A model generated the notes under the pieces. The model was not told the origin of the DNA. It was given only the letters and a program-made list of their open reading frames with translations, and ran no database searches. Below are positions 7,835 through 36,048 of a stretch of DNA of 41,843 nt, one piece after another; position 1 is the first letter of the stretch, and every line of letters begins with the position of its first letter. Position numbers and translations under genes: made by a program. Source of the DNA: Candidatus Argoarchaeum ethanivorans (GTDB lineage Archaea > Halobacteriota > Methanosarcinia > Methanosarcinales > EX4572-44); NCBI GenBank assembly GCA_905067555.1, contig CAJHIS010000006.1, positions 1-41,843 on the forward strand, in the 5' to 3' direction.

Positions 7835-7858
7835 GATGAACAACAGAGACAAAAGAGG

Positions 7859-9186: not shown

Positions 9187-12100
9187 ATGAAAACACGATA
9201 TAGATACATAGTGCTGCCGATAGTGCTGATAGCGTTGTTGGCAGCGTTCAGCGTACCGGTAAGTGCGGTAACCGGTGGCTGCCCTTCAGAAACTAAATAC
9301 AGTGAGACAATCCATGGCGGCATTTACTATGTGGCGCAAGCTCCCCCGTCGGCTGTATTTACTGACGTGCCCGATGGAATAAAACTTGCACGGCTTTATA
9401 CCGGTGCCTGGGGTGGCTCTCCGGGTAGCTGTGTGGACTTTAGCTTGACCATTAACGACTTTACCACGGAAACCTACCATGCATGCGACCCGGACAGTTA
9501 TCCGGAGCGATGCAGCGTTATTGATACACCGGAATGTCACGATTGTGTCACTGGCTGCGGTGTCCACTTTATCACCTATAATGCAACTCCTCATATCGTT
9601 ACCGGTAACAACACGATATCAACGAGTGTGCCGAGTTATTACGGTTACGTGCTTGGTCTTTTAGTCGTGTACGAGGACCCGAGCATGCCGGAAATCACAT
9701 ACTGGATAAACGAAGGAAGCCCGCTGATGATCAGTGGCAGCGGCTGTGATCCGGATAGCGATGAAATTTACATACATTTTAACGGCACTACCGGCAGTAC
9801 AAGTGCAATGAAATACTGGACCTTGGGGTTCCCAAGTAATTCCGGGGTAAACCCGGAGCTTAACGGAAACGATATCGGTGCACCTGACTATATGAGTTAT
9901 CTGTACAGGTGGGACAACATACTAACCAGTTATCTAAACCCATCAACCAATCTATTCCATTATTACCACCCGGGTGCTGATTACGAGCGTGTTCACTCTG
10001 CCGTGCTCATGCTCGAACATGGCGAGTCATCTCCTGACACAACACCACCCTACACCACTGGACATGGCCCGGCAAAAGGTGCGGCAGATGTTCCTCTCGA
10101 CACGAACATCGTTGTTCATGTCAAGGATGACAACACTGGCGTTGATAATACAACGATCGTGATGACAGTTGAAGGCAGCCCGGTAACACCAGTTACCACT
10201 GGCACTCAGGCTGATTACACACTCACTTACAACCCGCCAGCCGATTTCGGCTACGGGCAGGTAGTGGACGTAACAGTTGACGCCAGTGACTTGAACGGAA
10301 CACCGAATGTGATGCCCGTTGATTCGTACTCGTTTACGATAATGGAACTTGAGTCATCAACACCGTTTTTGATCTTGGGCTGGGTCAACAACAGCGCAGG
10401 AAGTCCTGTGAACAATCCCCTGGTGAATGTAACAAACACGAACACCTCCGAGGTCTTCACCGCGGAGACGACTGCTGATTCCAGTTACTACCAGGTACTG
10501 ACTTCATCAAACAACGTCAGCGCAGGTGATGTGCTGCACTTCTATGCCAGTGACAGTAGCAATGTGGAAGAGTTCGACCATACCGTTTCCGAAAGCGAGA
10601 TGAATGCAGGCGGCTTTGAAGAGAACATCACCATACGCTTCCCGTATACCGACCTGGTCGTAACAGGGATCGATGCATACCACAATGCCACCGGTTATCC
10701 GGCATGCTTCAACCTCTCAAACGAGATCGACATAATAGTTGAGAATACAGGCACCAAAGCTGCAAATTCGTCCCATGTTGCTTTGTATATAGACGGCGAG
10801 TTCTATGGAAAGCAGAGTGGGCCGTCAATAAATCCCGGATGCAGTGCAACCGTGCAGTTCGAATGGACTCCAACCGGAACCGACTGTGAGGATGGAGGCA
10901 CTCCAACTACCTACACGCTAAAAGCGGTTGCAGACTGCGATGGTGAGATAGGTGAGGAGAACGAAGGAAACAACGAGTCAACTACGCTGGAAACGGCATA
11001 CTGGGCTGGATACAGTGCCGATGAGGTGTTAAGCACCGCGTTCCATGGCACGGTTCACGGCAGTTTGAACTTCACAACCGGTGACGGCGTCTATACGGCT
11101 TTGAACGGTCCGGGAGCATCTACGGATATAAACTACGACATAACACTGCCGGATGGCGCCAGCGTGGAACTTGCACGGCTGAACGTGTACTACACATGGA
11201 GCCAGATCGATGAGACAGGTGTTTACCCATCCATGGGTGTAAATATTACAAAACCATCTGGTGGAACATACACGCTTTTATCTGTCGCGGAATACAATGA
11301 CAGACCCTGCGACACTCCCGCAATTACATACAACTATCCTTTCGGAAACTACGTGTACGATCTGACGGCTTATGTTACAGAGAGCGGAACCTACACCGTG
11401 ACCGTGGAGAATACAGGAACCACAGGGCACAGCTTTGCCATTGACCCACCCGGACTCGTAATCCTATACAATGATACGACAAAGCCAGAGTATGAATACT
11501 GGATACTCGAGGGAGCGGACCTGCTCGAAGGCGGACGCAGAGGCGGTGCTGGTAATCTCGCACTGAGCGAATGCATCAACAACGCGACTATCGAAGGGAC
11601 GATCGACCTCAGCATGATGGGGAGTGCAACACTCGGACTGGCAACTCCATGGGGCGGAGATGGCGGAGATCCAAGCTACCTGTACTTCAATGGCGTTGAG
11701 ATCGGGAAGGATGTCTATCACGGCTACAGCGAAACATACAGCGAAACATTGAACGGAATGTCGATGCACATAGGAAGCACGCATGCGCAGATGGGTGTTA
11801 ACCTGACTGATGTGACGACTCCTCTTGCTGCAAGCAATAATGTTGTTGGCCAGGGAGATGACGGCGATTCGATGCTGCTGGCTAATGTGTTCATGCTGGT
11901 TGAGCGTGGGGAAGCGAAACAGGACGACGTGGCAAATGCGGACATACCTGTTTCTGGCACGATGTCAGGCAGCTATGTGGATACACAAACCACTAATAAT
12001 GTATCCGAATCCATAACCGAAGTGGAGAGTAAAGGAAAGCCCGCTAACAGATACAGCTATCTTGAGCACAAATGGACGGTTGATGTAACCGGTGGAAACA

Positions 12101-21900: not shown

Positions 21901-23374
21901 CGAGGTATTGCAGTTCAATGTCTCGGATGGATTTCGGTATAACGTTACAAACCATACAGTAACGCAAGAGAATATAACAGATGGCGGACTGTTCAACTTT
22001 AATTTTACACTGCCGACACCGCCATCGCCGTCAACACCATACGTGATTTGCGGCAGGGTATTCTACAAGAATGGAACCGCATGCAACAATCCAACGGTGA
22101 ACCTAACCAATATGAACAACAGCAGGCAGTGGCAGGCTGAGACGAATGCAAGTTATAACTACTACCAGATAGCGCTTGCTGGTGGCACTGACCTTAACGC
22201 AACAGAGATACTGCAATTCAACGTTAAAGCTCCTGACGCATCACAGTTCAATACCACCAGCCACACAGTAACACAGGATAAGATAGACGGCGGCGGGTTA
22301 TTCAACTTCAACCTTACGCTTAAAGCGCCAGAAACGCCGTTCATAATTTATGGCCGGGTTAACTACGATAACGGCACTGCATGTGATGACCCAACCGTGA
22401 ATATAACCAATACTAACACGAGCATCACATGGCAGGCTGAGACGCATTCCGGTTATAACTACTATCAACTCGTTCTCGACACCACGAACATAAGCACCGG
22501 CAATGTGCTTTCGTTCAATGCTACAGACGGAACGGAGTTCAACGTTACTAACTATACGGTAACACAGGAGAATATGGCCGATGGCGGGCTGTTCGACTTC
22601 AATCTTACGCTCCTGTCAGGATCACAAACAGAGGGTCCGACCGTGGACAGCATTACGATAACGCCTGATGATAGTGGTGAAGCAGGGGTTCAGATAAACC
22701 CGACTCCAGGCGGTAACACGACTGTTAATATATCTGCGGTGGTAAGCGACCCGGAGGGCTGGGATGACGTAGATACAGTAAATGCAACTATAACAGGCCC
22801 AGGTACTGTTTCAGACAGTCCGGTTACATTGTCTTTCGTTTCAAACAGTAGTTTGATGACTGCAACTTACAACGGAACGTTCAACATGAGTTTCTATTAT
22901 GCTAATGGAACTTACACGGTGGACGTAACGGCAACAGACAACGGCAGCTTAACAGGCAGCAATTCCACTACATTTAATTACACAACTGCAATCGCTCTGG
23001 AACTCGATACAGGTACGGTAAACTTTTCCAGTAGCGGTCCGATTGACCCCGGTGAGATGAACGAAGTACTCGGTGACGAGGATATGTCAACGCTGAACAA
23101 TGCTACCGTTCGAAACATCGGGAACGTGGTAATTGACATGAATGTGAGTGGAACAGACATGACTTCTGCGGGCAACGTAGTCACAAAGGATAACATAGAA
23201 GCACGAATAAATGAAACAAACTATCAGAACATGAGCATGTCAAGATGCTTTGATGTGGACATGTCCATAGGGTTTTCAAGTCTTGAGAACGCAGACTTCA
23301 CGCTGTTTGTACCTTACGGGACACAGCAAGGGGATTATAGCGGAACGATTACACTGACCGCAAAACCATCGTGA
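18899..23374 (+). CDS. Giant surface protein: macroglobulin-like, tandem repeats, three shared modules, WxL-like end
   Basis: At 1491 residues this is the largest protein here. Signal peptide about 1-25. An Ig domain (75-185) is followed by a region ending in an alpha-2-macroglobulin MG-type domain (335-434; SIYKPGETGKFIIVVLDKAG and VSLVVTNPNNE are typical). Then come another Ig-like domain (436-555), a jelly-roll/CBM-like domain (557-731; ETFPNSTGTGGW, IYIDDVMV), two near-identical WSSPETDP repeats (738-833, 837-935), three consecutive copies of the recurrent ~95-residue module (943-1038, 1046-1141, 1146-1238), an Ig domain (1245-1362) and a WxL-like end (1366-1491) like that of the 14036 protein. 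Many N-x-S/T sequons suggest heavy glycosylation. No membrane anchor and no thioester motif (GCGEQ) were seen, so it is not a full macroglobulin. Confidence 0.82.
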   Translation: MRMSGLPILVVAVILLAAVLAPAMGMSLMNNSNSSSNFNESLNNTTNPVHDSKTPCLSPSIEAALPIGSPDEPPVVATPRTYGNTTLEEKTVFERNDSMFINVSISDVNGASDLNTILITILNANSDTILDNDIMTQDTPVTSGYVYNYFWMVPDDADSGTWTIEVYANDTLGNMGSASVRFIVNITNATVPENKNVTVDLIATKEHFVLNENPEFTFIVNYNTTGGESKANKTGLKAPALGEPKPNMKPFSVNAFSKRVGLKTLATPTETISTSVYYKDELLDIEPEIEKIGEGDFSIKIPSKRAFRAGLYKLKVELAKDNVTYVEEQEFEWGLVSLNTRKSIYKPGETGKFIIVVLDKAGHPVCDTDVSLVVTNPNNEKAVYSTADGTILPCNECGIYTADYPTEVEGNHIIDITALIDGTEVDFSTYFLVQQDYEFDIIRTAKSKIDPVKRDWFDVAINVESFAGANVNSITIKEFVPAEFDLNTDADIIEAGDTKVLTWNKNLTGNKASVSYSYSVPHIWPYLYALGPAEIGYGSERFTEARAWYVAVDPETIFHETFPNSTGTGGWDGSAQDKPGWVTIQGDGDPNDIQINAEDINAGTLPPSGGNNLNFEDCDHGFHTPEDFDIAYVSVDLSGYSGVEISYYWQDGGCGSTEGMRSAYSTDSTDGKDGTWTLMYEHVDEADDVWVKDTYSLPDAACVATFKLRFSAKMSASKEHIYIDDVMVTGSLPDTTSPWWSSPETDPVIIYENDVVAFFTDWNDNVALSGYIFSTNHSGTWVNESFTSFGCTPDTAEQEMTITASAGTTVGWRFYANDTSDNWNVTDVQTFVVQDGTPPEWSSPETDPKTVKEDDVVTFFTDWNDNVALSGYIFSTNHSGAWVNSSFVSFSGTFNISENVTQITASAGTTVGWRFYANDTSNNWNVTANQSFVVQSAEVITPVTTFMICGRVFYEDGSECNNSLVVNITNLNNSKQWSAKTNASYNYYQLILANGTDLNATEVLQFNVSDGFRYNVTNHTVTQENITDGGLFNFNFTLPTPPSPSTPYVICGRVFYKNGTACNNPTVNLTNMNNSRQWQAETNASYNYYQIALAGGTDLNATEILQFNVKAPDASQFNTTSHTVTQDKIDGGGLFNFNLTLKAPETPFIIYGRVNYDNGTACDDPTVNITNTNTSITWQAETHSGYNYYQLVLDTTNISTGNVLSFNATDGTEFNVTNYTVTQENMADGGLFDFNLTLLSGSQTEGPTVDSITITPDDSGEAGVQINPTPGGNTTVNISAVVSDPEGWDDVDTVNATITGPGTVSDSPVTLSFVSNSSLMTATYNGTFNMSFYYANGTYTVDVTATDNGSLTGSNSTTFNYTTAIALELDTGTVNFSSSGPIDPGEMNEVLGDEDMSTLNNATVRNIGNVVIDMNVSGTDMTSAGNVVTKDNIEARINETNYQNMSMSRCFDVDMSIGFSSLENADFTLFVPYGTQQGDYSGTITLTAKPS
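21110..21703 (+). repeat. Two tandem WSSPETDP repeats, third copy in the 24058 gene
   Basis: Codons 738-833 and 837-935 of the 18899 gene are near-identical at DNA level: CTTCTTTACCGATTGGAACG and the bases after it are the same in both, as is a GCATCCGCGGGAACTACGG stretch. A third, slightly diverged copy lies at about 24832-25125 in the 24058 gene. The strong DNA identity implies recent duplication and exchange between genes. Confidence 0.85.
21725..22612 (+). repeat. Triple tandem array of the recurrent ~95-residue module
   Basis: Three consecutive copies in the 18899 protein. Consensus: start PF-x-I-x-G-x-V-x-Y-x-NG, then a C-N/D-N/D-P turn, VNITN-x-N, a W-x-AET stretch, YNYYQ, a GTDLNATE or TTNIS-x-GN segment, LQFN, HTVTQ and GG-x-F-x-FN-x-TL. 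Single copies occur in the genes at 3299, 9187, 23413, 24058, 26433, 30287 and 31007. Confidence 0.85.
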
Positions 23375-23412: not shown

Positions 23413-24054
23413 GTGAAAATAAAATTGAACGGGATGGAAAGTAAAAAGAACAGAATAATGATATCTGTATTTGCAATATGCATAGTGTCTGCGGCATTAG
23501 TATCTGCAACGGCAAGTGCAGTGAGCTTACCATTTGAAATCTCCGGCTACGTATTCAACGCTGATGGCTCTGCGTGCAACGGTCCAACGATAACCATAAC
23601 CAATTTGAACACCGGTGAAACGTTCTCTACAATGACGTTACCATCGAGTAATTATTATTGTACAAAACCAGCGCCGTTATTGGACGATGTGGATGAAGGA
23701 AATGTGTTGCAGTTTAACGTAACTGCTGGACTTGAATCAGGTGATATAGAGCACCACATATCTGCATCAGATCTTAACCGTGCTGCACTGCAATTCAATA
23801 TCACGTTTAGTGAAGGTGGAGCTAAAGGTGAGAGCGTTGTAGAAGAAGAACAAATACAAACACCAATCCAGACACCAATCCAGACACCGGTGCTTCCACC
23901 TCTGCCGCAGGGACCAAACACAACGCCAACAACGGCACCATCAGAAGAGGAGGAGGGTAAAGGAATACCGGGATCCGAAGCTGTATACGCAATAATAGGA
24001 TTTATTGCGACGATATTATATTTAACATTGAAGGGAAAAAAAGGAGGTTCATAA
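23413..24054 (+). CDS. Small membrane-anchored protein carrying one shared module
   Basis: A 213-residue exported protein. Signal segment about 14-36 after a basic N-terminus. One copy of the recurrent module (about 39-132; FEISGYVFNADGSACNGP). Then an acidic/proline linker with QTPIQTP repeats (148-182), and GIPGSEAVYAI leading into a transmembrane segment (about 187-206) and a KGKKGG tail. The layout (module, low-complexity stalk, hydrophobic helix, basic end) is that of an anchor protein; the IPGSE start of the tail is a variant of the PGF-CTERM pattern. GTG 23413 is chosen because GAGGTGG lies nine bases upstream. The gene sits three bases before the next start and carries that gene's GGAGGT ribosome binding site in its final codons, so the two are co-expressed. 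It may tether module-bearing partners to the membrane. Confidence 0.75.
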   Translation: MKIKLNGMESKKNRIMISVFAICIVSAALVSATASAVSLPFEISGYVFNADGSACNGPTITITNLNTGETFSTMTLPSSNYYCTKPAPLLDDVDEGNVLQFNVTAGLESGDIEHHISASDLNRAALQFNITFSEGGAKGESVVEEEQIQTPIQTPIQTPVLPPLPQGPNTTPTTAPSEEEEGKGIPGSEAVYAIIGFIATILYLTLKGKKGGS

Positions 24055-24057: not shown

Positions 24058-26346
24058 ATGAAAACAAAAGGATTGACCGGTCTGATCATAACGGTTGCGA
24101 TGTGTATGCTTACGGTGCAAGTAGCAGCGCAGTCCACACCGTTCATGATCTATGGATACGTATCTTACGAAAATGGTGATACGTGCAATAATCCAACGGT
24201 GAACATAACGAATCTGGATACAGGTGTAGAGTGGCAGGCTGAGACAAGTGCAAGTTATAATTATTATCAGCTTATTCTTGACACCACGAACATAAGTGTT
24301 GGCAATGTGATTGAGTTTAATGCCACATCCCCGAATGGAAACCAAACAAATATTACAGAGCATACTGTGACGCAAGAAGAAGTAAATACTGGCGGGTTTA
24401 AGTTTAATATCACGCTCGCACCAAACGTTGTGATTAATGAGTTTGTTTCGAATAATGCAACCGAATGGGTTGAACTATACAACAAAGGCACCACATCGGT
24501 TAATCTGAGTGGCTGGACACTTAAGGATGGCGCTTTAGCAGCAAAACCCCTGTCCGGGATGATTCTTGCGAATGACTACTTGGTATTCAGTTATAGTAGC
24601 GGCTGGCTAAACAACGATGATGATATTATCTATCTGAACAGCACCATTACAAACATTGATAAGGTTGCATACGACGACTGGGATGATGGAAACACTGCAG
24701 ACAATGCGCCTAAAGCTGGTGCAGGTGAATCCACCGGCAGATTCCCCAATGGCGTGGACACAAATAATGACAGTGCAGACTTCCGGGTTTTCGATAATCC
24801 AACGTCTGGAGCGCCGAATATTATAGACACAACACCTCCGTGGTGGTCATCTCCGGAGACAGACCCGGAAACAATCAACGAAAGCGATGTGGTAACCTTC
24901 TTTACCGACTGGAACGACACTGTGGCTCTTTCCGGGTATATCTTCTCAACGAACCAAACTGGCTCATGGGTAAACGAGAGTTTCACAGCCTTTAGCTGCA
25001 CTCCGGACACCGCAGAACAGGAGGTGACAATAACAGCATCCGCGGGAACTACGGTTGGATGGCGGTTCTATGCAAAAGACACATCAGACAACTGGAATGC
25101 ATCCGATATTCAAACATTCGTTGTCTATGACACCACAGCACCGGCAAGCATCACCGATCTGCAGAACACAACATACCAGGAGACCTGCATCAACTGGACA
25201 TGGACTGATCCAGCGGATGCTGACTTCTCGCATGTGAAGGTTTATCTCGATGGAATATACAAGGAAGATGTCCTGAAAGGAGTCCGGTTCTACAATGCAA
25301 CCGAGCTCACTCATAATACCACATACGAGATTGCCACGCGTACGGTCGACGAATCCGGAAACATCAATGCAACATGGGTGAACCACACCTCATGGACAAA
25401 GACATCTTCCACCTCTGTCGAAATAGGCAATTACGGGATGTCATCACCATCGGGCACCCTGACAGTACCGATAATGCTTCAAAACATTATGGGCTACGGT
25501 ACAGCCACGGTAATCTTGGAGTATAACGAGAGTGTTGTGCATGTTACAAATGTAGCAAACGGATCGTTCTCATCAGTGCAAGCTTGCAACATCAATAACA
25601 CAACAGGCACCGTGAACATATCCGCACTGAACACGAGCGGAGTTAATGGGAGCATCGAGTTCGCGCTAATCACATTCGAGGCAGTTGGAGGCGATGGCGA
25701 TACCACACCACTCACTTTGAGCGTACAGAAGCTTTGCGATACCGGTTACCATAATCTGGCAAACCATACCAGCAACGGCTCAATCACCCTGATAGAGGGT
25801 ACGCCACCAGTAATCAGCAATGGAAACGCAACTCCCGGCGCGATTATACAGACCATCCTGAGTGATAGGAATAGGACTGTCAGCAGGAATACCACAACTT
25901 TGAGTGTCAATGTTACGGATACAGGCGGCTCTGGTGTGAAGAACGTAACCATCAATCTCACCCTAATCGGAGGAAGTGCAAATACATCAATGACCAATGG
26001 AGGCAGCGGCGATATCTACTCAGTAGATACGACTGCCACAGATGGCATCAACCTGACACACAACCTCGTTGTAACAGCCATGGATAATAACAACAACACC
26101 GCAACCTCCACCATAACGCTCGAGGTGCTTCGAAGAGGTGACGTGGTAAGGAACGACAAGGTTGACATAGGCGATGCACTATACATTGCACGGTATACTG
26201 TAGGACTTGAACCGCTTGCAGATAACTGGCTGCTTGTTGGTGATATTGTAGGAGAAGACGGCAACGAACTGGGCGATAACTCTGTCGATATGGGCGATGC
26301 ACTATACATTGCACGGTACACCGTTGGGTTGGAGGAAGAACCATAG
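24058..26346 (+). CDS. Secreted lamin-tail / cohesin-like / dockerin surface protein
   Basis: A 762-residue exported protein. Signal peptide 1-24. Order: shared module (27-120); lamin-tail (LTD) domain (122-255; VVINEFVSNNATEWVELYN, LSGWTLKDG); WSSPETDP repeat (259-356); FN3-like domain (361-449, closely matched in the 26433 protein); a cohesin-like domain (452-582; SVEIGNYGM, VPIMLQNI, ATVILEYNESVVHV); an Ig domain (584-690); and a C-terminal dockerin duplication (692-760) with two near-identical VDxGDALYIARYTVGL helices. The first calcium loop reads DVVRNDKVDIGD, so position 3 is V instead of N/D; the second is also irregular. Having cohesin-like and dockerin domains in one chain would allow head-to-tail polymerisation or docking to the 26433 protein. 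LTD domains in secreted proteins are often linked to nucleases or adhesion. Start is set by GGAGGT. Confidence 0.85.
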   Translation: MKTKGLTGLIITVAMCMLTVQVAAQSTPFMIYGYVSYENGDTCNNPTVNITNLDTGVEWQAETSASYNYYQLILDTTNISVGNVIEFNATSPNGNQTNITEHTVTQEEVNTGGFKFNITLAPNVVINEFVSNNATEWVELYNKGTTSVNLSGWTLKDGALAAKPLSGMILANDYLVFSYSSGWLNNDDDIIYLNSTITNIDKVAYDDWDDGNTADNAPKAGAGESTGRFPNGVDTNNDSADFRVFDNPTSGAPNIIDTTPPWWSSPETDPETINESDVVTFFTDWNDTVALSGYIFSTNQTGSWVNESFTAFSCTPDTAEQEVTITASAGTTVGWRFYAKDTSDNWNASDIQTFVVYDTTAPASITDLQNTTYQETCINWTWTDPADADFSHVKVYLDGIYKEDVLKGVRFYNATELTHNTTYEIATRTVDESGNINATWVNHTSWTKTSSTSVEIGNYGMSSPSGTLTVPIMLQNIMGYGTATVILEYNESVVHVTNVANGSFSSVQACNINNTTGTVNISALNTSGVNGSIEFALITFEAVGGDGDTTPLTLSVQKLCDTGYHNLANHTSNGSITLIEGTPPVISNGNATPGAIIQTILSDRNRTVSRNTTTLSVNVTDTGGSGVKNVTINLTLIGGSANTSMTNGGSGDIYSVDTTATDGINLTHNLVVTAMDNNNNTATSTITLEVLRRGDVVRNDKVDIGDALYIARYTVGLEPLADNWLLVGDIVGEDGNELGDNSVDMGDALYIARYTVGLEEEP

Positions 26347-26356
26347 ATAATATAAG

Positions 26357-26396
26357 ATGGTATTCGTAAGAATGCCATTTCTATTTTTTTTTATTT
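26357..26396 (+). terminator. Strong stem-loop terminator
   Basis: Arms ATGGTATTC (26357-26365) and GAATGCCAT (26370-26378), 9 bp with one G-T pair around GTAA, followed by TTCTATTTTTTTTTATTT. It ends the long operon that includes 23413 and 24058. Confidence 0.85.
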
Positions 26397-26432
26397 AATG
26401 TGATTATACGATTTCCATCGAAATGTTAATAT
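26389..26432 (+). promoter_or_regulatory. Promoter for the cohesin-like gene, near-leaderless
   Basis: TTTATTTAA (26389-26397) and GATTATACG (26402-26410) are TATA-like. Either would place transcription start within about 15 bases of the ATG at 26433, and no Shine-Dalgarno sequence is visible there, unlike most surface genes in the window. The gene is therefore likely a separate, short-leader transcript. Confidence 0.4.
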
Positions 26433-29400
26433 ATGAAAATCAACACAATTTCAATAAAAGTGCTATTCATTGGTTTACTACTGTCATTTGCTGTGCAATG
26501 CTGCGCAGCCACAACGGTATCCATCGGAGATATCACGGCTGATCAGGGCGATACGGTAACCATACCAATCGTGATCGATAGTATTGAAGGCTATGGCGCT
26601 GGTACGATAAATCTTGCATACAATTCAACTGTTGTTTTTGTTGAGGGTGCCACAGGTGGTTCAGATTCAACAGTCAGTGGAAAGAACATCAACAACACCG
26701 CGGGACTTGTCAGAATATCTGCATGGAATCCGGGTGGAGTCAGTGGGACTATCGTCTTTGCAAATGTTACGATCAAGGCGGTTGGCAATAGTAATGACTC
26801 AACCACGCTTACGCTCACTGTTGATACGTTACAGGATATTTCATACAATGAGATTCCAGTGGACATCACCAATGGGTCGTTTATGATCACAGGGCAGGCG
26901 TCAACCATACCCTCATCTACAGCACCAGCACCGTTTCTGATCAGCGGATATATCTATTACGAAAACGGTACTCCATGCAATAACCCACTTGTGAATATAG
27001 CCAACTTGAACACTGGCAGGGAATGGACAACTGAAACGAATGAGATCTTCAACTACTACCAGCGCATACTCGTCAATGGCACTGACCTGAATGCCAGTGA
27101 AGTACTACAGTTCAACGTCTCGGATGGAATAGGGTATAACACTACTAACTATGCGGTAACTCAGAGCGATATCAACAACGGCGGACTGTTCGAGTTCAAT
27201 CTCACACTGCCGTCACTGTCAAATCCTCCAACACTTGTTGAATACACCATAAGCAACAGGACGATCGCGCCCCCACAAACGACTGATATCGATGTGAAGT
27301 TCTCTGAAAAAGTAACATGGAAGATCGCTATCGAAAACGGTGGTGCGGTCTACGATTGGACTGGAACAAGCACGAATCCAACTTCAAAGCAATGGAATGG
27401 AACATACGAGGGAAATAGTACGATCGTGCCGGATGGCACATACACAGTAAACATCACATGGACGAATACAACGACAGGTCTTGGCGGTCAGAATAACACA
27501 GAGACGATAACCGTATCAAAACCACCAGCAAGCATCACGAATCTGCAGAACACAACTTATGAGCAGACCTACATCAACTGGACATGGACTGATCCGGAAG
27601 ATGCGGACTTCTCGAAGGTGATGGTGTACCTCGATGGAACATTCAAGGAAAATGTCACAAAGGGAATCCAGTTCTACAATGCAACAGGACTCACTCCTGA
27701 CACCGAATATGAGATCAGCACACATACGGTCGGTAATGCTGGAAACACCAATGATACATGGGTTAACCACACCTCGAGGACAAAGCCGACTCCGGATACT
27801 ACAGCACCTGTCATCAACACAGTGATCCTGAACACAACCACACCAAACACTGGTGATGCGATTCTGGTTACAGTGGATGCAACCGATGATGTTGCAGTGA
27901 CAAGTGTGATAGTAGGCAGTGTTGAATTCACATCCCAGGGTGGAAACATCTGGAATGGAACGATCACAGCAATAGAGGGAACTCATTCTGTGAATGTATC
28001 AGCAAAGGATGCAGCAGAAAAAACTGGATGGAACAACTCAACCAGTTACACTGCAACAACACCAGACACCACGGCGCCTGTCATCACCGACGTCGCAAAT
28101 GGTACGCCATCAGCCAGTTCGGTAACCATCACATGGACTACGGATGAAGCAAGCGACAGCGTTGTCAAGTACGGCACTGTATCTGGCGATTACCCGTACA
28201 CCAAATCCAATACAGCGATGGTAACCTCACACAGCATCACGCTGACTGGGCTTGATCCATCCACCACATATTACTTCGTGGTGAGCAGCACGGATGCAAG
28301 TGATAATTCGGCACAAAGCGCAGAGCACAACTTCACAACGGCAGCATGGAATGTAGCCGCCAACGGATCAATCACCGGTAAAGTCACCGATAGTGTCACA
28401 AAATATACTATCGAAGGCGCTACCGTTACCGCTGGTGGCGCGGCAGTACAAACAAACAGGGAGGGTGACTATACCATCTCACTGAAAGCTGGTACGTATA
28501 CTGTGTCTGCAAATAAAGCAGGATACGTTGATCCAACACCTGTAAGTGTGAATGTTGCAGCAGGAATCCAAGCGACGAAAGACTTCGTACTCGTACGTGA
28601 TTACGTCGAACTTGAGCTTGAAGCGGGCGAGACTACCACAAAAATAGGAAACGTCAATGAAGATATTTCGTTTAATTTGACGGTTACGAATCACGGAGAA
28701 TCTGCTACGTACAATATTACCAATTCAAGCACAACTGCCAATATACTTATCAACCCGATCACAACCGGATTATTACACGACAGTAATACAAGTAATATAT
28801 GGGTGAAGATAAATGCTTCGATCACTGGAAGTTATCCAGTTACAATATCGGCGATCACTGGTAGCAAATCCGCAGCGATAACTATTGTAACACTTGCGTT
28901 GAACAGAAGTGAAGCTGGGATAAACGATTCCAGTAGTGTCACTAATAATTCAAAACTGTTGAACGGTACGCTTGTACAGAATAATTCCGCAGTAAACGAC
29001 TCCACGGTAACTAGTTCCATAGTCGATAATTCGACTGTACTCGACGCCAATGTAACAGATTCTTTCCTATCTGAGGACACGAATGTAACAGGTGGAGATG
29101 TAACCAACTCGACATTGACAAACGCAACCACAACCGGCACAAACGTTACTGGTTCTGAGATCGAAGATTCGACGACATCAGGAGGAACGGTAGAAGGGTC
29201 TATAGTTACAGGCTCAACCACAACGGATACAACGGTTAGCGGTTCGAAATTAGATAATGTTAATGCAACAGGCAGTACGATAACCGATGTAACCCTGCAT
29301 AACATCGAACTCACGAACGCGACTGTATGGAATACAACTGCTGGTATGCCAACGGTAAAAGGCAGTGAGACTACAGAAGTGACAACAAAGGGCGTACACT

Positions 29401-30209
29401 TCACGAAAGTTTACGAAGATGTTGCGGTAGCCAACCTCGTCAAGAATCAGACGAGGGAGCAGCCTGTTCCCGCGGATACGCCTACAACCACACCACCGGA
29501 TGAGGCGAGAGAAGTTGGAGCTTCACTCACACTTAATAGTAGTGATGTTGGAAACGTCACGATCTCCAGATGTGGTATTAACCCAGGCGGAAGCACATTC
29601 GCATTGAGAGGGTTTAGCGGTAATATAGTGGGAGATTATATACACATCACCCATGACATACCAGAGGACGCTGAGGTGAATGTTACAATCGACCTATACT
29701 ATGGAACAGATAAGCCAGGTGACGACAAGCACATCACATGGTACAATGAAACTGCAGATCCAATGGTATGGGAGCAGCTTTCGACAACTAAAGTCGAGAA
29801 GATTGATGGATGGTACTTACGCGTGACTAATCTTAACCATCTCAGTACCTTCGCGCTCGTCACATCCTCAGCACCATCCGACAGTGTCAGCAGCTGTGGA
29901 GGTGGAGGTGGCGGCACATATCCACTGATACCAGCATCATCCCCGGCGATAACATCTGCTGCAGGAACGCCAGTAGAAGAGGGGGCAGCAGCGGAAACAC
30001 CGACACCGGAACAGGTCATGGAATTCCGCGCAGAACCGCCATCGCTTCCACCCCCAATTTTGTCTCCGATCGCTGGAATTGTTATAGTGGCAGTAGCAGC
30101 GATTTTTGGGATAGTGATGGCGACCCGCGCCGCGGAAGATCATAAGAAGGCAACCATCGGCATTGTTATCGTTGCGGTTGCTGCGATCATTGGGATGATG
30201 CTGATGTGA
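26433..30209 (+). CDS. Membrane-anchored cohesin-like scaffold with pentapeptide-type helix
   Basis: A 1258-residue exported protein. Signal peptide 1-25. Domains: cohesin-like (27-153; VSIGDITADQGDTVTIPIVI, LAYNSTVVFV, GLVRISAW); shared module (166-260); Ig (265-362); FN3-like (364-450); Ig (455-545); FN3 (546-636; TITWTTDEASDSVVKYG); carboxypeptidase regulatory-like domain (643-722; GSITGKVTDSVTKYTIEGATV); Ig (723-825); a region of strict five-residue repeats (about 833-985; units such as NSTVL, DANVT, TGGDV, TNSTL); a globular domain (1027-1143); a glycine linker; and two hydrophobic segments (about 1210-1230, 1241-1258) with a DHKK loop. The pentapeptide stretch predicts a rigid square beta-helix acting as a spacer. 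As the only anchored cohesin-like protein here it is the natural dock for the dockerin proteins at 24058 and 31007; the pairing is inferred. Confidence 0.82.
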   Translation: MKINTISIKVLFIGLLLSFAVQCCAATTVSIGDITADQGDTVTIPIVIDSIEGYGAGTINLAYNSTVVFVEGATGGSDSTVSGKNINNTAGLVRISAWNPGGVSGTIVFANVTIKAVGNSNDSTTLTLTVDTLQDISYNEIPVDITNGSFMITGQASTIPSSTAPAPFLISGYIYYENGTPCNNPLVNIANLNTGREWTTETNEIFNYYQRILVNGTDLNASEVLQFNVSDGIGYNTTNYAVTQSDINNGGLFEFNLTLPSLSNPPTLVEYTISNRTIAPPQTTDIDVKFSEKVTWKIAIENGGAVYDWTGTSTNPTSKQWNGTYEGNSTIVPDGTYTVNITWTNTTTGLGGQNNTETITVSKPPASITNLQNTTYEQTYINWTWTDPEDADFSKVMVYLDGTFKENVTKGIQFYNATGLTPDTEYEISTHTVGNAGNTNDTWVNHTSRTKPTPDTTAPVINTVILNTTTPNTGDAILVTVDATDDVAVTSVIVGSVEFTSQGGNIWNGTITAIEGTHSVNVSAKDAAEKTGWNNSTSYTATTPDTTAPVITDVANGTPSASSVTITWTTDEASDSVVKYGTVSGDYPYTKSNTAMVTSHSITLTGLDPSTTYYFVVSSTDASDNSAQSAEHNFTTAAWNVAANGSITGKVTDSVTKYTIEGATVTAGGAAVQTNREGDYTISLKAGTYTVSANKAGYVDPTPVSVNVAAGIQATKDFVLVRDYVELELEAGETTTKIGNVNEDISFNLTVTNHGESATYNITNSSTTANILINPITTGLLHDSNTSNIWVKINASITGSYPVTISAITGSKSAAITIVTLALNRSEAGINDSSSVTNNSKLLNGTLVQNNSAVNDSTVTSSIVDNSTVLDANVTDSFLSEDTNVTGGDVTNSTLTNATTTGTNVTGSEIEDSTTSGGTVEGSIVTGSTTTDTTVSGSKLDNVNATGSTITDVTLHNIELTNATVWNTTAGMPTVKGSETTEVTTKGVHFTKVYEDVAVANLVKNQTREQPVPADTPTTTPPDEAREVGASLTLNSSDVGNVTISRCGINPGGSTFALRGFSGNIVGDYIHITHDIPEDAEVNVTIDLYYGTDKPGDDKHITWYNETADPMVWEQLSTTKVEKIDGWYLRVTNLNHLSTFALVTSSAPSDSVSSCGGGGGGTYPLIPASSPAITSAAGTPVEEGAAAETPTPEQVMEFRAEPPSLPPPILSPIAGIVIVAVAAIFGIVMATRAAEDHKKATIGIVIVAVAAIIGMMLM
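28929..29387 (+). repeat. Pentapeptide-type repeat region
   Basis: Codons about 833-985 of the 26433 gene. Every fifth residue is V, L, I or T/A and the rest are mostly N, S, T, G, D: for example EDTNV, TGGDV, TNSTL, TNATT, TGTNV, TGSEI, EDSTT, SGGTV, EGSIV, TGSTT, TDTTV, SGSKL. Roughly 25-30 units. The usual A(D/N)LXX preference is replaced by T/S/V, as expected of an extracellular variant. Confidence 0.75.
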
Positions 30210-30286
30210 GCGGTGACGGCAATTCTCGCAGTTGGCCGAGGCGATGTCGTGAGTAACGGGAGCGATGAACAGGAGGAATAAACAAG

Positions 30287-30646
30287 ATGAGAACAGAGAT
30301 GAGAACAAGCAGACTCATCGTGGTTGCAGCACTGCTCATGCTTGCTGCACCAGCGATGGCGGAGCCAGCACCGTCGATGCCGTTTGTGATCGATGGATAT
30401 GTACACGAATTCTGCGGCGACCCATGCAATGGGACATGGGTGCAGATAACGAATGCGAGTGTGAGCTGGGATGCCGAGAACAGTTCAGACTCGAACTACT
30501 ACCGGCTCGTGCTGGACAGTAGTAATGTGAGTGCTGACAATGTCCTGCGGTTCGATGCATCAGGATGCTTCCGGTCAAAGACGATCGAATATACAGTGGC
30601 CGCGGGTGAAATACGGGACGGTGGATTTACAGAAGAGATAGAATGA
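30287..30646 (+). CDS. Secreted stand-alone copy of the shared module
   Basis: A 119-residue exported protein made of a signal peptide (about 1-25; ends AMA-EPA) and a single copy of the recurrent module (FVIDGYVHEFCGDPCNGTWV, NYYRLVLDSSNVSADN, GGFTEEI). It defines the boundaries of the module as an independently folding unit of about 90 residues. AGGAGGAA lies nine bases before ATG 30287; a second ATG at 30299 would give a tidier signal peptide. The stop overlaps the next start by four bases (ATGA), so it is translationally coupled to the small membrane protein at 30643. Conserved cysteine pairs suggest disulfides. It could be a capping or bridging subunit. Confidence 0.75.
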   Translation: MRTEMRTSRLIVVAALLMLAAPAMAEPAPSMPFVIDGYVHEFCGDPCNGTWVQITNASVSWDAENSSDSNYYRLVLDSSNVSADNVLRFDASGCFRSKTIEYTVAAGEIRDGGFTEEIE

Positions 30647-30861
30647 AGATTTTGAAATCGCTTTTAGCTGGAACGAGTTCGATTCTCGTGTTCATCGCTG
30701 TCATATTCTCGCTTGGATTCATTGGATATACAATACCGTTCTGTGCAGTGGTTGGTGCATACTTGCTTCCTCTTGTGATACCTCTGTCAGTGGTTTTCAC
30801 GCTGTGCACACTTTTGAAACTGCATGTAAATGTAAGTGGTGGATGCTGCGATCAAAGTTGA
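30643..30861 (+). CDS. Small two-helix membrane protein
   Basis: A 72-residue protein with two hydrophobic segments (about 9-30 and 36-59), a basic N-terminus (MKILK) and a C-terminal VSGGCCDQS. I do not recognise a family. Its ATGA overlap with the upstream secreted module gene means the two are made together, so it may be a membrane anchor or export helper for that protein. The double cysteine near the end could form a disulfide or accept a lipid; this is speculation. It is short, and reality rests mainly on the overlap, hydrophobic pattern and coding context. Confidence 0.55.
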   Translation: MKILKSLLAGTSSILVFIAVIFSLGFIGYTIPFCAVVGAYLLPLVIPLSVVFTLCTLLKLHVNVSGGCCDQS

Positions 30862-30873
30862 GGAAGTTCGGAG

Positions 30874-30904
30874 TTTGATCCACTATCAAAATAGTAGATT
30901 CAAA
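30874..30904 (+). terminator. Hairpin after the two-gene unit
   Basis: TTTGATC-C-ACTAT pairs with ATAGT-A-GATTCAAA around CAAA with one mismatch and one bulge. There is no T-run behind it, so terminator status is uncertain. Confidence 0.4.
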
Positions 30905-30941
30905 GTGCAACAATTTCCAAAAGGTGAGTAGTTACGATACG

Positions 30942-30950
30942 TTTATATAA
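30942..30950 (+). promoter_or_regulatory. TATA box for the 31007 gene
   Basis: TTTATATAA preceded by GATACG, about 60 bases before the ATG. Start of transcription would be near 30972, giving a ~35-base leader that includes GAGGT at 30999-31003. Confidence 0.5.
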
Positions 30951-31006
30951 TAATATGATACCTTTCTTGTTATGTATCATTATATCCTACAAAAACATGA
31001 GGTAAT

Positions 31007-32725
31007 ATGAATATGAACATATATACAAGAATGCTAATATGCTTAACAGTGATGGCTATTCTCATAGTGCCATCCTTTGCACAGCCGACGCCATTTGCGA
31101 TTAAGGGGTGGGTTTTCTACGAGGGTGGTAATCCATGCGATGATCCCATGGTCAATATAACGAATCTGGACACCAGTGCGAAATGGCAGGCTGAGACAAA
31201 CGCGAGTTCCAGTCACTATCAGATCATTCTCATAAGCGGTACCGATCTGAACGCAACTGAGATACTGCGGTTTGATGTTACTGGTGGAACGAATACCAGC
31301 GTCACAAATCATACCATAAGCGTAAGTGAAGTGAATGATGGTGGGATATTCAATTTCAATATCACGCTTGGACCGACATCGAGCGATGCAGATCTGAACG
31401 TAACAGGTGTCACCGTAAACTGCGGCTATCTCTTCGGTAACGAATCGAATGAAATCAGCGCAACGATAAAGAACAATGGCTCTGGCAATGCAGGTGCCTT
31501 CAACGTGAGCTTCAGTGTGGGCGGTATCAGCGAGCAGGTAACAGTAAGCAGCCTGGCCGCCGGTAACAGCACAACAGTATCAGTTACTGATCCAACGATT
31601 AGAAATGCTGGCGATTCCGTGCCGATAACCGTGACTGCAGATTGCAACGGTGAGATTGTAGAATCAAACGAGACGAACAACGTATCAAGCATCACTAAAA
31701 CGGTGGTGAACAATGGCTACAAGGGCAAGCGATACACTGGCGGTACGAACATGACCACATGGAAGTCGTATGATCTCAACGGCAATCTGGTATATTCGGC
31801 TGGTGACAGCTACTATCTGAGTAGTTATTCCTATCCAGACTGGACAACATACAACGTAAGCTGGACTGCAAGTGATCTCCCAGTTTCAGGCACAGTTATA
31901 GAAGCAAGGCTGTATACGATGTACACATGGGATAAGAAGGATGTGATGTCGAATAATGCCAATTTGAAGTTCAATGATGCTCTTCAGACAGTGGATAAGC
32001 ACTACAAGGATGAGAAGATGTATGCTACCAGCTACCCTTATGGAATGCTGGTATACAACGTGACCGATGACTTCAACGCAACCGGAAACTATGCGAATCT
32101 CACTAACTCATATCCGGGTGGAGGTAACGTATCGATGCGCGGTATGCTTCTCGTAGCGATATACGAGGATGCAGGTAAACAGCGAAGGGTGATCTATATC
32201 AATGAGGAGTTTGACCTGCTCTATGGTGGCTCAGGTAAATGCACAACACCAGATGAGGCAACTGATTATGCACCAATCGGTGGTTCGATCGATGCGCCAA
32301 ATGCATCGTGTGCCAGACTGATAACAATCGCACCAGGGGCTGATGGTTCTGGTAGTACCGGTGAAGGTGAATTAATCTTCAACGGACATGTCTGGAACGA
32401 TGAGTGGAGAGATAACGAGGTTCACCAGATTGGAATCAGTGATCGTGATGTGACCTTGTATCTGCAGTCAACAGACAATCTGGTAGGATTCCAAAGTAAC
32501 GCAGACTGGATGGAAGCAAGCAATGCATTCCTCGTGGTCACTTTTGGGATACTGGGCGATGTGAATCAAGATTCTGAGATCACACCTGCCGACGCCGTGA
32601 TGGTGCTTGAGATGGCTGTTCGTGGTGAATACTCAGAAGCGGCCGATGTGAGTGAAGATGGGTGCGTAACATCTCTTGATGCACTGATGATCTTACAGGC
32701 AGTGGCTAATAACGTAACGCTATAA
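31007..32725 (+). CDS. Secreted module / CARDB / DUF3344 protein with canonical dockerin
   Basis: A 572-residue exported protein. Signal peptide 1-25 (ends SFA-QPT). Domains: shared module (27-121); CARDB (127-232); DUF3344 (236-512; IEARLYTMYTWDKKD, IYINEEFDLLYGG, ASNAFLVVTFG); and a C-terminal dockerin (516-570). The dockerin has two calcium loops with D at 1, N/S at 3, D at 5 and D at 12 (GDVNQDSEITPAD and ADVSEDGCVTSLD), each followed by an amphipathic helix, so it should be functional. GAGGT lies three bases before ATG 31007 and nine before ATG 31013; the second may be the real start. With its own TATA box it is the last complete gene of the plus-strand array and a likely ligand of the cohesin-like domains at 24058 or 26433. 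Confidence 0.88.
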   Translation: MNMNIYTRMLICLTVMAILIVPSFAQPTPFAIKGWVFYEGGNPCDDPMVNITNLDTSAKWQAETNASSSHYQIILISGTDLNATEILRFDVTGGTNTSVTNHTISVSEVNDGGIFNFNITLGPTSSDADLNVTGVTVNCGYLFGNESNEISATIKNNGSGNAGAFNVSFSVGGISEQVTVSSLAAGNSTTVSVTDPTIRNAGDSVPITVTADCNGEIVESNETNNVSSITKTVVNNGYKGKRYTGGTNMTTWKSYDLNGNLVYSAGDSYYLSSYSYPDWTTYNVSWTASDLPVSGTVIEARLYTMYTWDKKDVMSNNANLKFNDALQTVDKHYKDEKMYATSYPYGMLVYNVTDDFNATGNYANLTNSYPGGGNVSMRGMLLVAIYEDAGKQRRVIYINEEFDLLYGGSGKCTTPDEATDYAPIGGSIDAPNASCARLITIAPGADGSGSTGEGELIFNGHVWNDEWRDNEVHQIGISDRDVTLYLQSTDNLVGFQSNADWMEASNAFLVVTFGILGDVNQDSEITPADAVMVLEMAVRGEYSEAADVSEDGCVTSLDALMILQAVANNVTL

Positions 32726-32833: not shown

Positions 32834-34408
32834 TCATCTGAACCTGCCGATCAGATACACCACAAAAAGCATACTTACTGCAAGCAGTATCTCGTACACT
32901 ATCGTCTCTGATAGTTTCTGTTTCGGTGGCGTGCTTACAGTTTGTGGTGTGTCGATAGTACTATTTTTATCATTATCTATTCTCTTGATATCTGAACCTG
33001 TTATTTCAATTACAGGCATCCTTGATGTGGTAACACTGCTGTAACCACTGCTAACAACTGCTATTTCAGGTGAGTCGAGCATGATATTCGTGGTTGAGTT
33101 AATCGTCATCGTGTACACCATTGTATCGATCTCTCCTGGTGAAAGAGTCGTCTGCATGGTTGTATTACCATTAATCACAAAAGCATTTACAGGTATGACA
33201 TCTGCAAGTTTGATGATTGCATCCTTATTTCCGGTGTTTGTCACTGTCACTGCAACGGTTACATTCTGTCCCTGTATCACTTCTTCCGCTTGTGCTGTTT
33301 TATTGACGATGATGTACGCTCCATCCACCATAACAGTACAGGCATTTGAAGTAATATTCAGTGTTTTTCCATGCACTGAAAATAGAATAGTTGCTGGCGG
33401 AACTTCAAAGATTCCGGGTCGTGTTGGTTTCATGAAATACGAATAATGCAGCATCTCTCCCTGTGTGAGGTTATATTCCCATGTGAGGTTTTGATTATCA
33501 CACAGGTTGAAACATGGTGGAAGGGTATCGTTTAGCCTGATAGAAAGATTTTTCCCCCCTTCGTTTTCCACATCAATGGAGACCAGTGCTTTCTGTCCCA
33601 TCGTTATGTTCGTTACAGTTTTCCTAATCTTTAAATTAAATCTCGGAAGTACTGTTATCTCTGTTGAAACTGATTCTGTATGCATTAGATTTTTCTCATC
33701 AAACCCGGTTGCATTAAGAAAAACAAGAAATGATTTTCCTTCTGAACCAGTGATCTCTGGTGGAACCTGCAGTCTTGCATAAAATTCCTCTTCCTCATCT
33801 ACCAAAAGACTTACCCAGTGTCTGGTAAGGTCTCCGCCGATCAATCTTAATTCACCCGGGTTAATTGAAGCACTCAGATTCTTGATTACAGCGTCCCCTT
33901 CATTTTCAATCGTTGCTGTAAGATAAATTAGAGAATCCTGTGCAGTATATGTTTTAGTGTTTGTTGCAAGCTCAAGTGAAATATCTGGTTTATTTCGCAG
34001 ATAGAAATTGATGTGAATGCATGGATTTGGCCAGTTAATCGGACTATTAGACCGTGGATCTTCATCAGTATCAGCATAAATCTCGATTTTGACTTCATCA
34101 TTCCAGATTAATTCATCACAGACCGTTGTTGTCGTACTTGACACATTACAGGAAGAATTGAGAATAGACTCATTTAATATGCTTTCCCCTTTTCGAAGCT
34201 GTATGAGTACAAAGTTGCCTTCAAACTTAACAGATTCATAGTCGACAAATTCAACGGTGTAACCTTCTACATTGTATGTGTCTCCTTTATACAATGCTGC
34301 ATCGCCGACATCATCCCAGTAATAGGGGTCTTCTGCATCAAAGGAAGCGGATGTTGCATGTATCGATGCCATACACAGCATCACTATCAATATTACCCGA
34401 ATGGTCAT
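32834..34408 (-). CDS. Exported S-layer-like/DUF11-like protein of a Tol-type operon
   Basis: A 524-residue protein. Signal peptide 1-20 (MTIRVILIVMLCMASIHATS). The N-terminal domain (about 22-150; YTVEFVDYESVKFEGNFVLIQLRKGESI) resembles archaeal S-layer-family domains. Three Ig/DUF11-like domains follow (about 150-265, 265-370, 375-475; VTVTNTGNKDAIIKLADVIP is DUF11-type). A transmembrane segment near 501-519 ends in a short basic tail (GRFR), so the chain is anchored with its bulk outside. Its start overlaps the stop of the DUF2149 gene by four bases (34405-34408), so the two are translationally coupled. In context it is the extracytoplasmic partner of the channel proteins, perhaps the element that receives the mechanical force. 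No enzyme motif seen. Confidence 0.75.
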   Translation of the reverse strand: MTIRVILIVMLCMASIHATSASFDAEDPYYWDDVGDAALYKGDTYNVEGYTVEFVDYESVKFEGNFVLIQLRKGESILNESILNSSCNVSSTTTTVCDELIWNDEVKIEIYADTDEDPRSNSPINWPNPCIHINFYLRNKPDISLELATNTKTYTAQDSLIYLTATIENEGDAVIKNLSASINPGELRLIGGDLTRHWVSLLVDEEEEFYARLQVPPEITGSEGKSFLVFLNATGFDEKNLMHTESVSTEITVLPRFNLKIRKTVTNITMGQKALVSIDVENEGGKNLSIRLNDTLPPCFNLCDNQNLTWEYNLTQGEMLHYSYFMKPTRPGIFEVPPATILFSVHGKTLNITSNACTVMVDGAYIIVNKTAQAEEVIQGQNVTVAVTVTNTGNKDAIIKLADVIPVNAFVINGNTTMQTTLSPGEIDTMVYTMTINSTTNIMLDSPEIAVVSSGYSSVTTSRMPVIEITGSDIKRIDNDKNSTIDTPQTVSTPPKQKLSETIVYEILLAVSMLFVVYLIGRFR

Positions 34409-34734
34409 TTTTCTTCCACGTATATGGTGGCACCTTCTGGTGTTTCATAGAGGATAGCAAGTTTCCTTCCAGTGGTTGTAACTGTTTCCTCAGTCATATT
34501 CAATGTCTCGATTTCTGTTCCGTTCTTGATAATCACTTCCATGTTCTCCTGCCCCGGATTTTTTACAATGGTCATGTCCTGTGTGGTGAGAAGCTCTGTA
34601 AGATTAAAGTGCATCATTGTCACAATAAGCAGACCAACAGCAAATAGCATCGCCACATCAAAGAGGTTTGCAACACCAGTCAACGGGTCTTCCTCATCTT
34701 CAAACGTTTTTGTTCTCTGTTTCATAAATTTCAT
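34405..34734 (-). CDS. DUF2149 protein, ExbD/TolR-like channel partner
   Basis: A 109-residue protein with a short cytoplasmic N-terminus, one transmembrane helix (about 22-43, NLFDVAMLFAVGLLIVTMM) and a small extracytoplasmic domain. The layout and an aspartate at the start of the helix (D26, in FDVAM) are those of ExbD/TolR/MotB-type subunits, where this Asp carries the proton. DUF2149 genes commonly sit beside MotA/TolQ/ExbB genes in methanogens. It follows the channel gene after a 90-base spacer that contains a paired palindrome; the GGTGAT ribosome binding site lies against the end of that hairpin. A second ATG six bases in is also possible as start. Confidence 0.8.
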   Translation of the reverse strand: MKFMKQRTKTFEDEEDPLTGVANLFDVAMLFAVGLLIVTMMHFNLTELLTTQDMTIVKNPGQENMEVIIKNGTEIETLNMTEETVTTTGRKLAILYETPEGATIYVEEK

Positions 34735-34747
34735 CGTATCACATCAC

Positions 34748-34797
34748 CTGCACAACTTCGTTGTGCAGAAATAACTCTCGATTGCGGAGCAATCGAG
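34748..34797 (-). repeat. Composite palindromic repeat, locus B
   Basis: CTGCACAAC / GTTGTGCAG around TTC (34748-34768), then AAATAACT, then CTCGATTGC / GCAATCGAG around GGA (34777-34797). The first hairpin is identical to the one at 525-545. It lies inside an operon, between the channel gene and the DUF2149 gene, and touches the latter's ribosome binding site. Confidence 0.8.
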
Positions 34798-34824
34798 TTT
34801 CATAAATTTCATAAATTTTTTAGA

Positions 34825-36048
34825 TCACCCTGTCTTAACAACGCGTCCCGGCAAGATTGCATGTAGGATTCCAAGATTGTGTGAGGAATCTCTTTCAACA
34901 CATCCAATATCGATCCATTTATCTCTTGTCAGGATTTTCATCGAATGCTTGTGCCATGATTTCATAACCTCTACGCCAACGATGTCCTTGTAGGCGATCT
35001 CAAAATTATATGCATCATCCTTTAAAATATCCTCCGGATGTAACTGCATGAGGCGATCTAATTTTTTTCGTGCATGCATCTTACTCAGGTGCATCGTAAC
35101 AATAAGCACAGCACAGATAAATAAGTTAATAACTATCAAATAGTTAAAAGAAATAACAATCTCAAAATACCTTGCAATAATTGTTATAGCATTGATACAA
35201 ACGATTAAGATCATAAAAACGATCGGATTAAAAAAGAATGAGCTGTTGGTTTTTGCAACGATTACTTTTGTTGCAGTAAAAAACAGACTGCAAGAGATAG
35301 ATCTGCCAGATCGAAAGGAATTTGTGTTGATGACACCGGAAATATCTGACGAATCGTTGTTATCTGTTTTATTATGCCTTGCGGATGCAATCGTTTTCAC
35401 TTCGCTTTTTGATGCAGCATCTCCAAACATTACCTCAGATATATATTCAATATCACTCATATCCTGCCCGTACCATCGGGCTCGTACCATCGAGACCATA
35501 AAACCAATTACTCCTGCTGTCAGTCCGACAACTGTCGTACCAAACGCGATCACAAGATTATTAGCAAGAGCTACCACATCGCCTCGTATAAGTCCCATCA
35601 GTGCCGGACCCATTGGTATTAGTGTTCCCATCAGCCCAAACATTGGTCCGGCTCTTGTCAGAAATTTTGTCTTCTCAAGCCGCTTTCGCATCGTTACCTC
35701 ACAGTCCTGGATGAGTTTTTGCATCTTGACTGACAGAAGTTCTGGCCTAAATTCTACACAGCTCTGTATATCTTCTATAAAGTTTTGAACGAAGTAATTG
35801 GAACCACTCTTTCTCATTGCCTGCACCGCTCCGGAAAGGTCTTCATTCTGCAGAAGTGCCCTTGCATGGAGTGCCCCATACTCAAGCTGTTTCAGGTCCC
35901 TGTGTCGAAAACGATACTCAAAGATAAAACCTCCAAGTTCTAAAATACTCCATGCCGCAAGTGCGAGAAGTATGATCATTACAGGATAAAGCATCGAGGT
36001 TGATACTGTATAGATAGCAGACTGAAGTAGTGATGCAATACTAAACAT
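34825..36048 (-). CDS. MotA/TolQ/ExbB family channel with C-terminal membrane and PH-like extension
   Basis: A 407-residue membrane protein. Residues 1-205 are a MotA/TolQ/ExbB channel: a helix near 20-42, a cytoplasmic loop, and two helices (about 130-155 and 166-188) with the family's GPMFGLMGTLIPMGPAL and FGTTVVGLTAGVIGF. A linker (205-250) leads to two more helices (about 276-320) and a cytoplasmic C-terminal domain (325-407) with VVGVE-type strands that look PH-like. The usual family length is about 200-240 residues, so the second half is an extra module. Function: proton (or sodium) conduction coupled to work on an envelope partner, together with the DUF2149 protein. A TATA box TTTATATAG (36082 to 36074) would start transcription within a few bases of the ATG, giving an almost leaderless mRNA. 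Confidence 0.82.
   Translation of the reverse strand: MFSIASLLQSAIYTVSTSMLYPVMIILLALAAWSILELGGFIFEYRFRHRDLKQLEYGALHARALLQNEDLSGAVQAMRKSGSNYFVQNFIEDIQSCVEFRPELLSVKMQKLIQDCEVTMRKRLEKTKFLTRAGPMFGLMGTLIPMGPALMGLIRGDVVALANNLVIAFGTTVVGLTAGVIGFMVSMVRARWYGQDMSDIEYISEVMFGDAASKSEVKTIASARHNKTDNNDSSDISGVINTNSFRSGRSISCSLFFTATKVIVAKTNSSFFFNPIVFMILIVCINAITIIARYFEIVISFNYLIVINLFICAVLIVTMHLSKMHARKKLDRLMQLHPEDILKDDAYNFEIAYKDIVGVEVMKSWHKHSMKILTRDKWIDIGCVERDSSHNLGILHAILPGRVVKTG

Follow-up and report, generated by a model that had tools for sequence, protein, structure and literature searches.

What might a cohesin-dockerin system be for in an archaeon? The question is raised by three plus-strand genes for surface proteins on contig CAJHIS010000006.1 of Candidatus Argoarchaeum ethanivorans (assembly GCA_905067555.1), the whole 41,843-nucleotide stretch of which was analysed and is referred to as the window. 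The genes were verified at 24058-26346 (762 aa), 26433-30209 (1258 aa) and 31007-32725 (572 aa). A first-pass annotation, made from the sequence alone, had proposed that the encoded proteins assemble into a surface scaffold, a reading that has since gained support from the conservation of the 24058-26433 gene pair and from a C-terminal trimodule similar to that of Clostridium thermocellum CipA. We consider the 24058 protein to be probably an adaptor and the 26433 protein its surface receptor, within a cell-surface cohesin-dockerin network of an ethane-oxidizing archaeon. The identities of the domains, the conservation and fold order of the trimodule, the adjacency of the genes and the anchor helices of the receptor were observed directly; each pairing of partners is a prediction.

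The cohesin-Ig-dockerin cassette

The final 313 residues of the 24058 protein (P0001) form a conserved unit, the cassette, made up of a cohesin (25405-25803, residues 450-582), an immunoglobulin (Ig)-like module (25807-26133) and a dockerin (26137-26343). Upstream of this unit lie a signal peptide, an N-terminal beta module, a Lamin tail domain (24421-24672; PF00932, 49.7 bits) and an Ig-like region. The cohesin gave no Pfam match when scanned as an isolated domain. It is 44% identical to the N-terminal cohesin of the 26433 protein (E 1.3e-23), 26 of 33 cassette-family members match Pfam Cohesin at E 0.01 or better, and the family profile matches the solved cohesins 2vn5 (1e-8) and 2xdh (2e-7). 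Its predicted structure is a jelly-roll beta sandwich resembling 2xdh, 1aoh and 5nrm (TMt about 0.8). On the strength of this homology, the family matches and the confident model, the second cohesin that the first-pass annotation had placed inside the 24058 protein is real. The closest solved archaeal single-cohesin relative is 2xdh, a non-cellulosomal cohesin of Archaeoglobus fulgidus, which adjoins the CipA trimodule among the Foldseek matches (TMt 0.78). The intervening module is predicted to consist of beta strands, and the Big_13 family is detected at this position in 8 of the 33 relatives.

The AlphaFold model of the cassette (pLDDT 91.2, pTM 0.71) has as its top matches in the PDB 4fl4 and 3kcp, both of the Coh9-X-DocII trimodule of CipA (E 2.6e-12, prob 1.00). 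The order cohesin, Ig-like module, dockerin at the extreme C-terminus of a secreted scaffold protein is thus common to both systems, with the archaeal Ig-like module occupying the position of the CipA X module. In bacterial cellulosomes, such as those of C. thermocellum and Acetivibrio, the X-dockerin attaches the scaffoldin to the cell surface by binding the cohesins of anchoring proteins there, and a stabilizing effect on the dockerin is ascribed to the X module (PMC5141474). By analogy with CipA and its partners SdbA, OlpB and Orf2p, the expected partner of the cassette would be a cell-surface anchoring cohesin protein. The archaeal version is nevertheless very distant, at about 12% identity in the structural match, and differs in several respects: the adaptor carries a single cohesin, loop 2 of its dockerin has an insertion, the receptor uses C-terminal helices where C. 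thermocellum anchoring proteins use surface-layer homology (SLH) domains, the locus lacks a cellulose-binding or hydrolase context, and the binding of the partner is a prediction. Since the 24058 and 26433 proteins contain one cohesin each, neither shows the multiple cohesins of a cellulosome-type scaffoldin; multi-cohesin chains do occur in relatives (L069, L126).

A scan of prokaryote contigs with the whole 24058 protein as the query gave no match, while the cassette alignment retrieved 43 loci from a scan of 85,000 prokaryote species. The 33 aligned members are 33-46% identical to the window copy across the 313 residues. Loci with the full unit are found in archaeal metagenome-assembled genomes labelled as anaerobic methanotrophic archaea (ANME) of group ANME-2, Methanosarcinales, Methanosarcinaceae (including ANME-3) and Methanophagales (ANME-1), the exceptions being a handful of contigs that are short or have odd labels (L061, L085, L086 and L088). 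Two of these, L061 and L086, are short contigs labelled Bathyarchaeota and Aenigmatarchaeota and may be misbinned; L086 is near the ANME-1 copies. No match was obtained in viral contigs, and there is accordingly no sign of a viral origin.

A search at the order level covered 186 genomes, with an E-value below 1e-60 defining a strong full-length match and with family names that are partly inferred. Besides the window genome, 4 members of family f2 gave strong matches, as did about a dozen members of f3 (the family that includes Methanogasteraceae, ANME-2c) and 3 members of f4. Of these last three, two belong to the ANME-3 genus and the third is G083. A diverged copy is present in a single f5 genome, f5 being probably Methanoperedenaceae. 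In the remaining ~100 f4 genomes (Methanosarcinaceae, mostly methanogens), the search returned at best cohesin or Ig fragments. The cassette is found in ANME-1, ANME-2, ANME-3 and the ethane-oxidizer lineage, and is almost absent from methanogen relatives.

The adaptor dockerin and its partner

The 26433 protein (P0002) comprises a signal peptide, an N-terminal cohesin (26508-26891), beta domains that include Pur_ac_phosph_N/fn3-like and CarboxypepD_reg-like domains (28095-28592), and two C-terminal hydrophobic helices (30069-30125 and 30150-30206) that likely anchor it in the membrane. The cohesin was missed in the Pfam scan of the full-length protein and was seen with the isolated domain and in a six-frame genome search, where it scores above the PF00963 cut-off (38.5 bits, E 1.6e-9; cut-off 24.1). 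The N-terminal cohesin that the first-pass annotation had assigned to this anchored protein is thereby confirmed, and the predicted layout is that of a cell-surface anchoring cohesin protein.

Enough downstream sequence was available at 42 cassette loci, and at 31 of these the cassette gene is followed on the same strand, at a spacing of -195 to +87 nt, by a gene whose product has a cohesin at its N-terminus. Among the 26 next-gene proteins that are complete at the 3' end, 12 (the 26433 protein included) terminate in a hydrophobic anchor, several of these with a PGF-like sorting motif; 11 end in a further dockerin and 3 are unclear. No C-terminal anchor was found on the adaptors, which were examined for hydrophobic C-termini. 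It is mainly because of this pattern, reminiscent of the clustered scaffoldin genes ScaA-D of Acetivibrio (PMC3413522), that we regard the 26433 cohesin as the probable partner of the 24058 dockerin. The secreted adaptor would then use its trimodule as a 'tow-hook', its dockerin docking into the single cohesin at the distal N-terminus of the membrane-anchored receptor. The adaptor's own cohesin would be left free for another dockerin protein, with the 31007 protein, other clients or a dockerin-bearing surface-layer (S-layer) protein as candidates.

Several findings weigh against this assignment. The dockerin and next-gene cohesin distances correlate in a mirror-tree test (r 0.75), and the Ig module gives the same r of 0.75; co-inheritance therefore explains the correlation, co-evolution does not discriminate between partners, and the test was dropped as evidence for pairing. 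In a cohesin tree, which is built from a short domain with many weak forks and was used for clustering by locus alone, adaptor and receptor cohesins group by locus rather than by position. Cassette and next-gene cohesins are on average 48% identical within a locus and 37% between loci. Because the cohesins are so alike (44% in the window) and cluster by locus, the dockerin may not discriminate adaptor from receptor cohesin and could bind both. The root-mean-square deviation between the cassette and the CipA trimodule is 11-12 Å, and the relative placement of the domains consequently differs. The 24058 and 26433 genes are separated by a hairpin followed by a T run (26355-26380, plus strand), a possible terminator, so that co-transcription is not assured; such sites are no more frequent in the window than in shuffled sequence. 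Finally, three genomes of the same genus, all incomplete, were searched and yielded no cassette.

The locus-wise similarity of the cohesins would also suit a homotypic fibre, in which copies of the 24058 protein polymerize head to tail, the dockerin of one binding the cohesin of another, and the 26433 cohesin perhaps caps the chain at the membrane. Every intact cassette does have both partners in one chain, the feature from which the first-pass annotation had suggested polymerization. The X-dockerins known so far bind anchoring cohesins rather than the type I cohesins of their own scaffoldin (PMC5141474), and the L073 and L079 loci, where the genes run cassette, cassette, anchored cohesin, suggest sequential docking of different chains ending in an anchor. 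Polymerization of the 24058 protein is possible, but a fibre of this kind seems unlikely to be its principal mode of assembly. A relay from adaptor to anchor is the leading reading, as the conserved downstream partner starts with a cohesin and in many cases ends in an anchor.

It is less probable still that the dockerin of the 24058 protein has decayed and lost its ability to bind, leaving that of the 31007 protein as the only working one. Of the two C-terminal dockerins described in the first-pass annotation, that of the 31007 protein (32552-32698) is a near-canonical type I dockerin (PF00404, 39.5 bits; cut-off 22.9) with the loops DVNQDSEITPAD and DVSEDGCVTSLD, which are canonical except for S in place of G at position 6 of the first. 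The 24058 dockerin falls slightly below the same cut-off at 21.2 bits; positions 3 and 5 of its loop 1, DVVRNDKVDIGD, are V and N, and GDALYIARYTVGLE occurs in both repeats. These loops had been called degenerate. The pattern is typical of a whole conserved subfamily of dockerins (type B) in ANME-1, -2 and -3, for which reason 'divergent subfamily' appears to be the better description. Within that subfamily D246, D257 and D298 (cassette numbering) are invariant in 33/33 members, Dockerin_1 is matched by 28 of the 33, and solved dockerins are among the structures that match the family profile. In the model of the window copy, moreover, the first and last helices have good confidence.

Clients, host and relation to known systems

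The dockerin-bearing candidate client encoded at 31007-32725 (P0003) has a signal peptide, the N-terminal beta module also seen in the adaptor, a CARDB domain (31388-31690; 77.9 bits), a DUF3344 domain (31733-32542; 183.8 bits) and the dockerin described above, which is of a type common genome-wide. The model of DUF3344 is mostly beta and Foldseek gave no confident PDB relative; the dockerin part of this model is of low confidence, having been built from one sequence only. DUF3344 occurs in five window genes (within 788-13344 and at 31007-32725), four of them without a detectable dockerin. A fusion of DUF3344 to a cassette-family Ig-dockerin, close to a cohesin gene, is seen at L096 (7140-8579).

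The host genome is 1.22 Mb in size and 57% complete. It contains 8 Pfam cohesins over the cut-off. Dockerin matches number 22, of which 19 exceed the cut-off, and by visual inspection the dockerins comprise four or more sequence types; in several proteins a cohesin and a dockerin occur together. Cohesins are also present in 30 of 40 relatives of the order, with a maximum of 46 per genome. The dockerin carriers are tandem S-layer proteins, PQQ and other propellers, NosD beta-helices and PKD, DUF3344 and PLD-like proteins, and one subtilase has a partial dockerin. The proposal that the assembled proteins are non-enzymatic holds only in part, with the phospholipase-D-like protein and the subtilase as departures from it. 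The beta-helix proteins of the window, which had also been proposed as assembled partners, show no dockerin by Pfam. A degradative machine gathering hydrolases as in clostridial cellulosomes, for which these two enzyme-like proteins could be cited, is highly improbable, given that the partners are mostly S-layer, propeller, beta-helix, PKD, CARDB or DUF3344 proteins and that none of the ten dockerin proteins scanned has a glycoside hydrolase domain, although enzymes could be missing from a genome of this completeness.

The host is an anaerobic ethane oxidizer of the GoM-Arc1 type, as its McrA-like protein is far closer to the ethyl-coenzyme M reductase 7b1s (587 bits) than to the best methyl-coenzyme M reductase (309 bits). 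A genome of the same family, assembled as a single 1.92 Mb contig, matches 7b1s across all 469 compared residues with 1104 bits. The host's genus, Argoarchaeum, is probably sister to Ethanoperedens.

The first-pass annotation had referred to scattered archaeal cohesins and dockerins without known roles, a description that does not fit the present case. Two earlier studies document ANME-1, -2a and -2c archaea, of the same broad archaeal group, as rich in both domains, including scaffoldin-like proteins with one dockerin and several cohesins as well as S-layer proteins with dockerins (Chadwick 2022, PMC9012536; Timmers 2017, PMC5244752). Sulfate-reducing bacterial partners also express cohesin/dockerin proteins (PMC10553843). 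In the passages of this literature that were read, no description was found of the cassette, of a tandem anchored-cohesin gene or of an ethane-oxidizer example; to that extent the cassette with its tandem receptor gene and the ethane-oxidizer case are new, the presence of cohesins and dockerins in ANME being already known.

A broader proposal would make the cassette and its tandem anchored-cohesin gene a dedicated scaffold of consortial methane- and ethane-oxidizing archaea, common to unrelated ANME lineages and ethane oxidizers, that builds the matrix holding archaeal-bacterial consortia together and perhaps docks proteins of the bacterial partner. We put this forward tentatively and with more doubt than conviction, as a surface-matrix role for life in consortia is, like the partner assignments, something we infer. 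The role of many ANME cohesins and dockerins has been called unclear, in a study whose authors asked which pairs bind (PMC9012536). The locus offers a concrete pair, a conserved Ig-dockerin and an adjoining anchored cohesin, for which ANME-1, -2 and -3 provide dozens of natural variants. If the pairing is true, archaea and clostridia share a three-module tow-hook for surface assembly, and a physical component of alkane-oxidizing consortia can be studied in vitro even though the organisms themselves have yet to be cultured.

Additional features of the window and its relatives

A module of ~95 residues with the pattern PFxIxGxVxYxNGxxCNxPxVNITN...YYQ...GG.F.FN.T is present in 10 copies in the window, at 5735-6004, 10354-10635, 21728-22612 (three), 23521-23808, 24130-24426, 26928-27209, 30371-30634 and 31079-31375. 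The copy at 24130-24426 is the N-terminal beta module of the adaptor ('PFxIxGxVxYxNGxxCNxPxVNITNL'), and that at 26928-27209 lies C-terminal of the receptor cohesin. A Pfam search gave no family over the cut-off, and the module is an unannotated domain; it has weak CarboxypepD_reg similarity and is also found in many ANME surface proteins. A combined alignment of cohesin and module was discarded, as its cohesin rows were badly aligned. A small fourth plus-strand open reading frame (30287-30646) sits between the 26433 and 31007 genes.

Elsewhere in the host genome, tandem S-layer proteins (PF07752) end in dockerins at L001 3400-7578 (contig C1) and L015 1566-3656 (C42), the latter dockerin being weak. 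By virtue of these terminal dockerins the S-layer itself may be a docking platform; S-layer dockerins of ANME archaea are already published (PMC9012536, PMC5244752). A relay-like cluster on contig C4 of the same genome (L007, 3880-10661) encodes a large secreted protein and a cohesin protein with a shared C-terminal dockerin-like tail, DLNNN..ADGGDVTAMWSAWRGEI, which differs from the 24058 dockerin; they are followed by a cohesin protein whose dockerin is of the common type. In an Ethanoperedens-like genome (G004:C1), a cohesin cluster with a scaffoldin of three cohesins plus a dockerin occurs twice, at 180598-183432 and 842107-844941. The constant offset of 661,509 bases and the identical scores point to a large duplication or an assembly repeat.

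On the minus strand of the window, adjoining the scaffold genes, BatD/DUF11-like, DUF2149 and MotA/TolQ/ExbB proteins are encoded in a row (32834-36048), possibly an energized membrane complex linked to the surface proteins.

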